Shown here one piece after another: positions 4,220 through 18,801 of a DNA stretch of 64,000 bases. A model generated the notes under the pieces. The model was not told where the DNA came from. It did not search any database and worked only from the letters and a program-made list of their open reading frames with translations. The DNA is from Massiliimalia massiliensis. Its GTDB lineage: Bacteria > Bacillota > Clostridia > Oscillospirales > Ruminococcaceae. The position numbers were made by a program, and so were the translations under genes. The stretch is taken from NCBI RefSeq assembly GCF_900155615.1, contig NZ_FUHT01000004.1, positions 744,001-808,000 on the forward strand. The letters are read 5' to 3'. Within the stretch, counting starts at the first letter, position 1, and each line of letters starts with the position of its first letter.

Positions 4220-4286
4220 AAAATCACCTTTCGTGGTACAATAAGATGTTCAAGCTTATTGCAAAAAAAGAAAGGTGATTTTAATG
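4220..4286 (+). promoter_or_regulatory. SD-sequestering hairpin upstream of tnpA
   Basis: AAAATCACCTTTC (4220-4232) is perfectly complementary over 13 bp to GAAAGGTGATTTT (4270-4282), which contains the tnpA SD and abuts its ATG (4284). An inner stem, CAATAAG (4239-4245) with CTTATTG (4255-4261), stabilises it. In known IS200 elements such a structure keeps transposase translation very low, especially on read-through transcripts. The role here is inferred from that precedent. Confidence 0.8.
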
Positions 4287-4745
4287 GCAAATAAAACAAA
4301 CAGTTTATCACACACAAAATGGATGTGTAAGTACCACATAGTGTTCATACCGAAATACCGAAGAAAAGCGATATACGGACAGTATAGAGTGGATTTGCAG
4401 AAAATCATAAGAACACTGTGTAAATACAAAGGAGTAGAAATACTGGAAGGAAATATGATGCCTGACCATGTACATCTGCTTTTAAGTATACCACCAAAAA
4501 TAAGTGTGTCAAGTTTCATGGGATACTTGAAAGGAAAAAGTGCGTTGATGATGTTTGATAAACATGCAAATCTAAAGTATAAGTATGGGAACAGACATTT
4601 CTGGGCAGAGGGGTACTATGTAAGTACAGTAGGACTCAATGAGGCAACCATACGGAAATACATAGAGGAACAGGAAAAGCACGATATAGCACTGGATAAA
4701 TTGAGTGTAAAAGAGTATGAAGACCCTTTTAAGGGTAGCAGGTAG
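4284..4745 (+). CDS. tnpA: IS200/IS605-family transposase TnpA (Y1 HUH)
   Basis: A 153-residue single-strand DNA transposase that cuts and rejoins the top strand of the element through a 5'-phosphotyrosine intermediate. The HUH metal motif is DHVHLL (near residue 58). The catalytic tyrosine is in ATIRKYIEEQ (near 123), and the EGYYVSTVGLNE segment before it is typical of the family. The length is normal and no frameshift is seen, so the element may be active. The ATG at 4284 is preferred to a GTG three codons upstream because SD GAAAGG is 9 bp before it. That SD lies inside a 13-bp stem. Base composition is clearly more AT-rich than the neighbours. Confidence 0.95.
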   Translation: MANKTNSLSHTKWMCKYHIVFIPKYRRKAIYGQYRVDLQKIIRTLCKYKGVEILEGNMMPDHVHLLLSIPPKISVSSFMGYLKGKSALMMFDKHANLKYKYGNRHFWAEGYYVSTVGLNEATIRKYIEEQEKHDIALDKLSVKEYEDPFKGSR

Positions 4746-6598: not shown

Positions 6599-6721
6599 AT
6601 CGTTTCGGTTTCCCGATCCCCTCCTCGATGTCCCTGATCAGCTTTTCTTTATTATCATAACACAGATTTCTGGAAAAACAATCAATAAATTGTAAAAAAG
6701 CCCAAAAAGATTGAGAATGCT

Positions 6722-6749
6722 TTGCAAAGCTTAATTTTTGTGCTATAAT
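6722..6749 (+). promoter_or_regulatory. Predicted promoter of the corA leader
   Basis: An extended -10 promoter: TG at 6741-6742 and -10 TATAAT at 6744-6749, with a -35 TTGCAA at 6722-6727 (16-bp spacer). It predicts transcription starting near 6756, about 130 nt before the corA start codon, so that the leader ORF and its hairpins are in the mRNA. Confidence 0.7.
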
Positions 6750-6785
6750 ATAACAGCTAGAGATTTTGAAACGGAGGATGTTATT

Positions 6786-6839
6786 ATGAACCCTGACCCT
6801 TGTATACGGAAACAAAATTGCATGCCGGGTATCTTATAA
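6786..6839 (+). CDS. MgtL-like leader peptide upstream of corA
   Basis: A 17-codon ORF, MNPDPCIRKQNCMPGIL, preceded by a near-ideal SD (GGAGG at 6773-6777, 8 bp spacing) and a strong promoter. Enterobacterial MgtL leaders are also 17 residues and begin with acidic/Pro alternations (MEPDP or MDPEP). Such N-terminal Pro-Asp/Glu runs make ribosomes unstable when Mg2+ is low. Codons 14-17 (from 6826) form the left arm of a hairpin that competes with a hairpin covering the corA SD. The peptide is too short for routine gene calls. The presence of the ORF, SD and hairpins is direct observation; the Mg2+-sensing role is inference from the resemblance and from the downstream Mg2+ channel gene. Confidence 0.75.
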   Translation: MNPDPCIRKQNCMPGIL

Positions 6840-6884
6840 CAGCCGCCTTCGAAGATACCTGACAGGATTTAGGAGGTATTTTCG
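6826..6884 (+). promoter_or_regulatory. Translational attenuator of corA (two exclusive hairpins)
   Basis: Strand 1 (CGGGTATCTT, 6826-6835) can pair with strand 2 (AAGATACCTG, 6852-6861) over 10 bp. Strand 2 (CGAAGATACCT, 6850-6860) can instead pair with strand 3 (AGGTATTTTCG, 6874-6884) over 11 bp with one G-U. Strand 3 contains half the corA SD (AGGAGG, 6871-6876) and ends at its ATG. Strand 1 is codons 14-17 of the leader ORF. A ribosome finishing the leader would mask strand 1 and favour the SD-hiding 2:3 stem. A ribosome that drops off early would leave 1:2 and an open SD. Confidence 0.7.
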
Positions 6885-7820
6885 ATGATTTCATATTATC
6901 AGACAGAACATAACAAAATGGTGAAAATCTCCGAATTTGTGGAGGGCTGCTGGGTAAATGTGATCAGCCCCTCGGCAGAGGAAATCGCTTATCTGGTGGA
7001 TAGGCTGAAGCTTGACCGCGACTTTGTCCGCGCCGCACTGGACGAGGAAGAGTCGTCCCGTATTGAAAATGAGGATGACCAGACTCTTGTTTTAGTCGAT
7101 ATTCCGATTATGACCAGCGAGGACAACAATACTGTCCTGTACACTACCCGGCCGCTCGGCATCATTATGACTGAGACGAATATTATCACCATTTCACTTC
7201 AAAACAATCCGGTAATCAATGATTTTGCAAACGGTGTGATCCGCAATATTCAGACGCAGCTTAAAACGCGTTTTCTGCTGCGTATTCTGCTGCGCGGGGC
7301 AACCCAGTATCTGACCTACCTGAAGCAGATCGACAAAATCACCTCCAGCCTGGAAAGCAAGCTGGACAAATCGATGAAAAACCGCCTGCTGATGCAGCTT
7401 TTGGGCCTGGAAAAGTCTCTCGTTTATTTCTCCACTTCATTAAAAGCGGACGAGATCACACTAGAAAAAATTCTGCGCGGCCGCGTTATCAAAATGTATG
7501 AGGAGGATCAGGATCTGCTCGAGGATGTGCTGATCGAGGTCAAGCAGGCAATTGAAATGTCGAGCATCTATTCCCGGACGCTTTCGAGTACAATGGACGC
7601 TTTTTCTTCCGTTATCAACAACAACCTGAACATTGTAATGAAAATCCTGACCGCAGTCACTGTCCTGTTGGAAATTCCGAACATGGTGTTCAGCTTCTAC
7701 GGGATGAACATTGACGGCGGACTTTGGTTAGATCAGTTTGACTGGGCTCCGTTGTTGGTTGCCGGCGTATTAACCGGCGGCGCAGCCATTATCCTTTATA
7801 AGGCGAGGATGTTTAAATAG
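6885..7820 (+). CDS. corA: CorA-family magnesium transporter
   Basis: A 311-residue pentameric divalent-cation channel subunit of the CorA/MIT family in the inner membrane. The long N-terminal cytoplasmic alpha/beta region is followed by a helical stalk (residues about 130-245) and two C-terminal TM helices. The family-defining loop motif GMN is at residues 273-275 in FSFYGMN, directly after TM1. The length is normal. The ATG at 6885 follows SD AGGAGG by 8 bp. The gene sits alone between a regulated leader and a terminator, so the leader must serve corA only. Mg2+ is the likely substrate; Co2+ or Ni2+ transport by relatives cannot be excluded. Confidence 0.96.
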   Translation: MISYYQTEHNKMVKISEFVEGCWVNVISPSAEEIAYLVDRLKLDRDFVRAALDEEESSRIENEDDQTLVLVDIPIMTSEDNNTVLYTTRPLGIIMTETNIITISLQNNPVINDFANGVIRNIQTQLKTRFLLRILLRGATQYLTYLKQIDKITSSLESKLDKSMKNRLLMQLLGLEKSLVYFSTSLKADEITLEKILRGRVIKMYEEDQDLLEDVLIEVKQAIEMSSIYSRTLSSTMDAFSSVINNNLNIVMKILTAVTVLLEIPNMVFSFYGMNIDGGLWLDQFDWAPLLVAGVLTGGAAIILYKARMFK

Positions 7821-18587: not shown

Positions 18588-18623
18588 ACTTTTGCGAAAG
18601 GAACTTCCACAAAGTTTTGTTTC

Positions 18624-18778
18624 TTTCATCCGGACTATACCGTCGGTTCCGGAATCACACCGGATCTGCAACTCGCTTCCAAACAGAATACTTGCTGTCA
18701 ATTGGAAACTTGTTTTGCTCGCGGACTAAGGAATCTCTTCCCATTACCGCCGGTGGAGAATTTCACTCCGCCCTGAAA
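18624..18778 (-). promoter_or_regulatory. FMN riboswitch (RFN element)
   Basis: The minus strand contains the conserved RFN blocks in order: TTCAGGGCGGAGTGAAATTC, CACCGGCGGTAA, AGTCCGCGAGC, GATCCGGTGTGATTCCGG, AACCGACGGTATAGTCCGGA and TGAAAG. The variable arm between the third and fourth blocks is of ordinary length. It precedes ribU by about 145 bp with a terminator in between, pointing to transcriptional control by FMN. Confidence 0.97.
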
Positions 18779-18801
18779 CAGACTTTATTCAGCTAACTAT
18801 T

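Follow-up and report, generated by a model that had tools for sequence, protein, structure and literature searches.

Putative Leader ORF and Its Signals Upstream of corA

The corA gene of Massiliimalia massiliensis is directly preceded by a short ORF whose product begins with MNPDP, and this raises the question of whether a Mg2+ transporter gene of the phylum Bacillota is controlled by a ribosome-destabilizing leader of the kind described for enterobacteria. The window, i.e., the whole stretch of DNA analyzed (64,000 nucleotides), was initially annotated as carrying a 17-codon MgtL-like ORF with the Shine–Dalgarno (SD) sequence GGAGG and a TATAAT promoter in front of corA, with a Mg2+ response attributed to it. 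The structural part of this annotation was borne out: the ORF with its SD was recovered from the sequence, the promoter-like site lay 5′ of position 6786, and the downstream gene product matched the CorA family. The features of the locus are as follows:

6721–6749 (+): promoter-like site, TTTGCA at 6721–6726 or TTGCAA at 6722–6727, followed after 16–17 nt by the extended −10 element TGCTATAAT; assigned by consensus match only
6773–6777 (+): leader SD sequence GGAGG, 8 bases 5′ of the leader ATG; an SD sequence was found in 73/80 relatives
6786–6839 (+): leader ORF encoding MNPDPCIRKQNCMPGIL; M-x-[PASTG]-D-P in 75/81 loci
6795–6797 and 6798–6800 (+): leader codons D4 (GAC) and P5 (CCT)
6871–6876 (+): corA SD sequence AGGAGG
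6885–7820 (+): corA, Mg2+ transporter, 311 aa (Pfam PF01544, 161.6 bits, E-value = 3 × 10−47)

The leader ORF extends from the ATG at 6786 to the TAA at 6837–6839 (17 codons and the stop), and its stop is separated from the corA start by 45 nt. The promoter-like site had 10 matches out of 12, with TATAAT at 6744–6749, and transcription presumably starts near 6756, as deduced from the end of the extended −10 element at 6749. The CorA protein was 89% identical to that of Massiliimalia timonensis, its nearest named relative among the genomes searched. The genome of the window contained a second CorA-family gene (G000:C3:148760–149521), at which the leader model described below had no match. An FMN riboswitch (18614–18784 (−), 114 bits) and a 156-aa ORF resembling, as judged by eye, an IS200-type transposase (4275–4745 (+)) were also present in the window.

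Conservation of the Leader at Related corA Loci

Each of the three congeneric genomes carried the leader, in the form M-K-P-D-P, and it was likewise retained in the wider comparison set of 80 corA loci of related Clostridia (81 with the window), where an SD-preceded short ORF starting with M-x-x-D-P was located no more than 260 nt 5′ of corA in 73 of the 80. In the remaining 585 kb of the same loci (both strands, outside the corA upstream regions), the SD-preceded pattern NTG-N6-GAYCC was absent, and the same pattern lacking an SD sequence occurred 17 times. Thus, given 73 of 80 corA upstream regions and none elsewhere for the SD-preceded motif, the leader is not a chance ORF.

Alignment of the leaders took in 75 of the 81 loci, including the window. 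Residues D4 and P5 were invariant, residue 3 was P, A, S, T or G, and the PDP version was found in 40 of the 75 leaders. The start codon was ATG, GTG or TTG, P5 was encoded by all four proline codons, and the small amino acids at position 3 were maintained through differing codons (CCN, GCN, ACN, TCN, AGC and GGY). Since D4-P5 is invariant, while residue 3 and the start codon vary and the P5 codons are synonymous, the conserved unit is M-x-x-D-P. The anticipated conservation of MxPDP was consequently seen with regard to the motif, its synonymous variation and the SD sequence; however, its invariant part was D4-P5 and not PDP. Other dipeptides at codons 4–5 were each found in at most three loci; among the loci without M-x-x-D-P, L101 had MSSDY and L092 had MSPGP. 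Only one acidic residue, D4, was present in the Oscillospirales leaders, including that of the window.

Searching the family and the order with exact MNPDP patterns was abandoned, most matches being internal to other genes. Among SD-preceded MNPDP short ORFs (17–28 codons) whose downstream gene was examined, corA was the next gene in every case except L126, which was without corA. Variation in residues 2–3 and in the start codon makes exact patterns overlook most members.

Some leaders were 37–56 codons long, which would suit a small functional peptide; meanwhile, conservation was limited to the first five residues, and the C-terminal half diverged freely while its RNA pairing was kept, so that a function of the peptide itself, or the lack of any regulatory role for the ORF, is scarcely credible. 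In 13 loci (L050, L059, L068, L074, L079, L082, L093, L094, L096, L098, L102, L106 and L107), the leader started 58–67 nt 5′ of corA and overlapped it out of frame by 26–83 nt; in this architecture, a ribosome translating the leader would run across the start of corA.

Codon Usage in the Leader

The codons following the D-P core differed sharply from those of the downstream corA genes. In leader codons 6–13, CGA accounted for 61% of Arg (4% in corA, p = 4 × 10−36), AGT for 73% of Ser (5% in corA, p = 1 × 10−50), TTA for 62% of Leu (6% in corA) and ATA for 60% of Ile (13% in corA). The proportion of rare codons fell from 61% in codons 6–13 to 23% after codon 13. In the window's own leader, this bias was weak (ATA at codon 7). 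In the mgtL of E. coli (L157:7432–7485), codons 10–13, located after the part encoding MEPDP, were the rare CGA CGG AGA TTA. D4 was encoded by GAC rather than GAT in 71 of 75 leaders, compared with about 52% expected, and CCT was favored at codon 5. The GAC preference was not accounted for by the helix of the leader start, in which the middle base of codon 4 was mostly unpaired.

The concentration of CGA, AGT, TTA and ATA directly after D-P, together with the single acidic residue of many members, also fits a reading in which the anatomy is the same and the signal is pausing at D-P and rare codons (EF-P, ABC-F or tRNA supply) rather than Mg2+.

RNA Anatomy of the Leader Region

Four strands were delimited in the window:

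6779–6793 (+): strand 0, spacer, start codon and codons 2–3; partner of strand 1 when the RNA is locked (minimum-energy fold, mean pairing profile and swap test)
6827–6841 (+): strand 1, last leader codons and stop; partner of strand 0 (locked) or strand 2 (open)
6849–6860 (+): strand 2, switch strand between the leader stop and corA
6874–6885 (+): strand 3, half of the corA SD sequence, spacer and A of the ATG; forms a 12-bp hairpin with strand 2

In the ribosome-free fold of the window, 6779–6793 was paired with 6827–6841, and the 2:3 hairpin had an energy of −15.4 kcal/mol (z = −3.1); in the open state, strands 1 and 2 can pair through 6827–6835 and 6852–6860. Across loci, strand 1 was specifically complementary to strand 2, and the three-strand potential was above that of shuffled sequences (67 loci, Fisher p = 2 × 10−27, this and the other pooled p values being too small because related loci were treated as independent). 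Strands of the same locus paired better than strands exchanged between species (swap test, 0.65 vs. 0.39, p = 4 × 10−8), which for the leader start helix is covariation obtained without alignment.

The first ensemble test, based on the six SD bases only and a fixed ribosome footprint, did not show an effect in the pooled loci (p = 0.44). After this failure, it was replaced by the energy needed to open the corA ribosome-binding site (RBS), since the hairpin in the window was seen to lie over the spacer and start codon no less than over the SD sequence. By this measure, the opening cost was 9.7 kcal/mol for the ribosome-free RNA and 6.0 kcal/mol with a ribosome on codons 4–5, i.e., a gain of 3.7 kcal/mol compared with 0.3 kcal/mol in shuffled sequences (p = 2 × 10−9). 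For a ribosome positioned on the stop codon of the leader, the cost was 9.3 kcal/mol (23 loci with the stop at least 40 nt 5′ of corA; p = 0.0015), and this succession of values was absent from shuffled sequences. The corresponding values for the window were 11.5 (ribosome-free), 7.0 (codons 4–5) and 12.9 kcal/mol (stop). The gain recurred in 15 loci outside the order, belonging to other lineages and other transporters (p = 0.007). In the modeled RNA, corA is thus most open when a ribosome occupies the first codons of the leader. In the 24 loci with the leader stop less than 40 nt from corA, the stop-codon state did not lock the RNA; here, the ribosome itself would cover the corA RBS. It should be noted that the minimum-energy fold of the window with a ribosome on codons 4–5 still had the 2:3 hairpin; the gain lies in the ensemble, and opening in the window is therefore partial, so that co-transcriptional folding would be needed as an aid, 1:2 forming before strand 3 has been transcribed.

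These results bear on two further explanations. Transcription attenuation, whether Rho-dependent or intrinsic, in which leader translation exposes or hides a termination site, has its precedent in enterobacterial mgtL and corL, both of which act through Rho; no terminator-like site was found between the leader and corA in the window, whereas in most loci the alternative helix covered the corA RBS, and attenuation therefore appears very unlikely. A riboswitch-like RNA sensing the metal directly, the ORF being incidental, would agree with the GAC preference at D4 and with the inclusion of the leader start region in the conserved helix. Such an RNA does not explain why the start codon varies, why all four P5 codons and a variety of synonymous codons at residue 3 are used, or why the SD spacing is held across loci; an additional conserved core of unpaired bases was not observed and no Rfam family matched the leader, which makes direct metal sensing highly improbable. 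For the D-P codons, a plain CCC/GGG hairpin was also weighed and discarded, its pairing being lost where AGT stands in place of GGG.

Motif-Only Searches and Link to Mg2+ Transport Genes

Searches that disregarded the downstream gene were run with a model of the leader start derived from sequence alone and built from Oscillospirales. All matches with an E-value below 0.03 in 41 relatives, except two, preceded corA, while those with an E-value above 0.09, which served as a negative control, were mostly inside ORFs. In 299 Bacillota genomes, 14 matches outside the window had an E-value below 0.005, of which 13 preceded Mg2+ transport genes, namely, CorA (L168, L169, L170 and L172), MgtE (L158, L165, L171, L174, L175 and L176), an MgtE_N/CBS gene (L159 and L167, with an Nramp gene directly next in the genome of L159) and an Nramp gene (L166). 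The remaining match, L173, was false. An earlier and smaller scan of the phylum added L160 (CorA) and L161 (MgtE). In a class-wide scan of 41 genomes, the window was the sole match; therefore, either the leader is scattered in its occurrence or a model derived from Oscillospirales leaders is too restrictive.

Outside Oscillospirales, residue 2 was usually D or E (MDPDP, MDADP, MDGDP and MEGDP), i.e., nearer to MEPDP. The resemblance to MEPDP noted in the initial annotation thus held for the D-P core; however, the closest form, M-[D/E]-x-D-P, occurs outside the order to which the window belongs. Regarding the Nramp gene, an Nramp-related Mg2+ transporter is reportedly known from Clostridium acetobutylicum. 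Of 16 such loci, 5 (L165, L166, L159, L167 and L176) carried an M-box riboswitch a short distance 5′ of the leader, about 70–115 nt away, and the genes concerned were MgtE, MgtE_N/CBS or Nramp. In these loci, the M-box and the M-x-x-D-P leader apparently constitute two Mg2+ sensors in series. The M-box (RF00380) had no match in the window, in the genome of the window or in the genus. That Nramp-related proteins include a Mg2+ transporter is described in PMC4072509.

As judged from gene neighborhoods, the motif is linked near-exclusively to Mg2+ transport genes of three unrelated families (CorA, MgtE and Nramp-type). Because the leaders precede Mg2+ genes and some adjoin M-boxes, the signal is taken to be Mg2+; the proposed Mg2+ response has thereby gained strong, although indirect, support. 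This association would be unexpected if the signal were a general translational one. The gain in opening requires only an early ribosome, whatever its cause, and would equally serve pausing unconnected with Mg2+; in view of the three transporter families and the adjacent M-boxes, pausing as the signal is considered unlikely.

Proposed Mechanism

The anatomy of the leader RNA and the link with Mg2+ genes and M-boxes, taken together, suggest that the gene is switched on by ribosomes that abort translation of the leader early when Mg2+ is low. It is likely, therefore, that this is a translated leader on which the ribosome acts as a Mg2+ sensor controlling translation of the transporter gene; leader translation, ribosome drop-off, its Mg2+ dependence and the direction of control are what we infer from these data. 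With no ribosome on the leader, strands 0:1 and 2:3 would be paired, and the corA RBS would be hidden (off). A ribosome on the first codons would free strand 1, which would capture strand 2 (1:2) and expose the corA site. In ample Mg2+, the ribosome would reach the leader stop and cover strand 1, allowing 2:3 to re-form (off). In low Mg2+, ribosomes would pause or drop off at M-x-x-Asp-Pro, aided by the rare codons after it, and with only the 5′ end of the leader occupied, corA would be translated (on).

Leaders with a single acidic residue, such as that of the window, may be weak destabilizers, with slow codons compensating, or the signal may be general pausing. In E. coli mgtL, the loss-of-function change tested affected both E2 and D4 (PMC11282234). 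The detail of the mechanism must differ where the leader ends close to corA or overlaps its start; a variant with direct occlusion of the RBS would apply to such leaders.

Comparison with Known Systems

The locus has three features of the MgtL/MgtQ type, namely, an SD-preceded short ORF 5′ of a Mg2+ transporter gene, conserved N-terminal acidic and proline residues and, in prediction, alternative RNA structures tied to leader translation (shuffle and swap controls). As in enterobacterial mgtL, 17 codons, an M-x-P-D-P start and rare Arg/Leu codons after it precede a Mg2+ transporter gene. The likeness to MgtL claimed initially holds to this extent; however, mgtL lies before mgtA and acts by Rho-dependent termination, whereas the gene downstream here is corA, and the RNA suggests an mgtQ-like translation switch. 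Moreover, mgtL has E2 and D4, whereas D4 is the only acidic residue in Oscillospirales leaders, and no evidence was found for common descent of the Bacillota leaders and mgtL.

The closest parallel is the 8-aa ORF mgtQ before mgtB of Salmonella, for which the same topology, with a proline codon in the first stem and a requirement for acidic codons, was established experimentally (PMC8092293). Both systems have an acidic/proline short ORF before a Mg2+ transporter gene, translation control (predicted here) and a four-strand RNA hiding the transporter RBS, with 1:2 and 3:4 alternating with 2:3 in mgtQ and 0:1 and 2:3 alternating with 1:2 in the window. In contrast to mgtQ, which is intergenic within an operon and has a P-type ATPase as its output, the Bacillota leaders have CorA, MgtE and Nramp-type outputs, an M-x-x-D-P core with a rare-codon block and sometimes a position behind an M-box, and the leader lies in a 5′ UTR with its own promoter.

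Enterobacterial corL, which precedes corA, works with Rho and has fewer proline and acidic residues (PMC11552253). It shares with the present leader its position before corA and an inverse relation between leader translation and corA expression (proposed here); however, corL of E. coli starts with UUG, and no D-P core has been reported for it. The corL-associated structured corA RNA (Stav 2019) is reported only in Gammaproteobacteria and was for this reason rejected as a match. The M-box (RF00380, ykoK leader) similarly provides Mg2+-dependent control of Bacillota Mg2+ transporters, a dependence that is probable here, but it binds the metal directly and has no ORF. A mycobacterial M-box is followed by the conserved uORF2 (Rv1805A), a Mycobacteria-specific peptide with a conserved proline at position 7 (PMC12810186); the order of M-box and conserved short ORF is the same, whereas no M-x-x-D-P core has been reported there. 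The leaders do not resemble those of amino-acid attenuation, as no run of codons for an amino acid served by the downstream genes was present and those genes encode metal transporters.

Novelty and Significance

In the open-access literature, ribosome-destabilizing Mg2+ leaders were found for enterobacteria only, and none of this type was found for Bacillota; most subscription papers and preprints lay outside that search. The initial statement that no such leader is known from Clostridia thus stands within that literature, but leader control of corA as such is known from enterobacterial corL. Leaders of this general kind are known; to the extent that this could be checked, the new features are the occurrence in this phylum, the output genes, the combination of a D-P core with slow codons and the association with M-boxes. 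On balance, the data favor a Bacillota-wide class of ribosome-based Mg2+ sensors, with M-x-x-Asp-Pro, a slow-codon block, a four-strand switch, three transporter families and stacking with the M-box in some lineages; the relation of this class to MgtL/MgtQ would be one of either convergence or shared ancestry.

These Bacillota probably use the ribosome to sense low Mg2+, as enterobacteria do. This would make ribosome destabilization a general strategy of Mg2+ sensing, extending beyond a few enterobacterial leaders, and would offer a possible explanation of how Mg2+ uptake is regulated in gut Clostridia that lack an M-box. The leaders would also provide a large natural alignment for asking which residues and codons cause ribosomes to drop off, namely, the D-P core, an acidic or neutral residue at position 2 and the adjacent slow codons.
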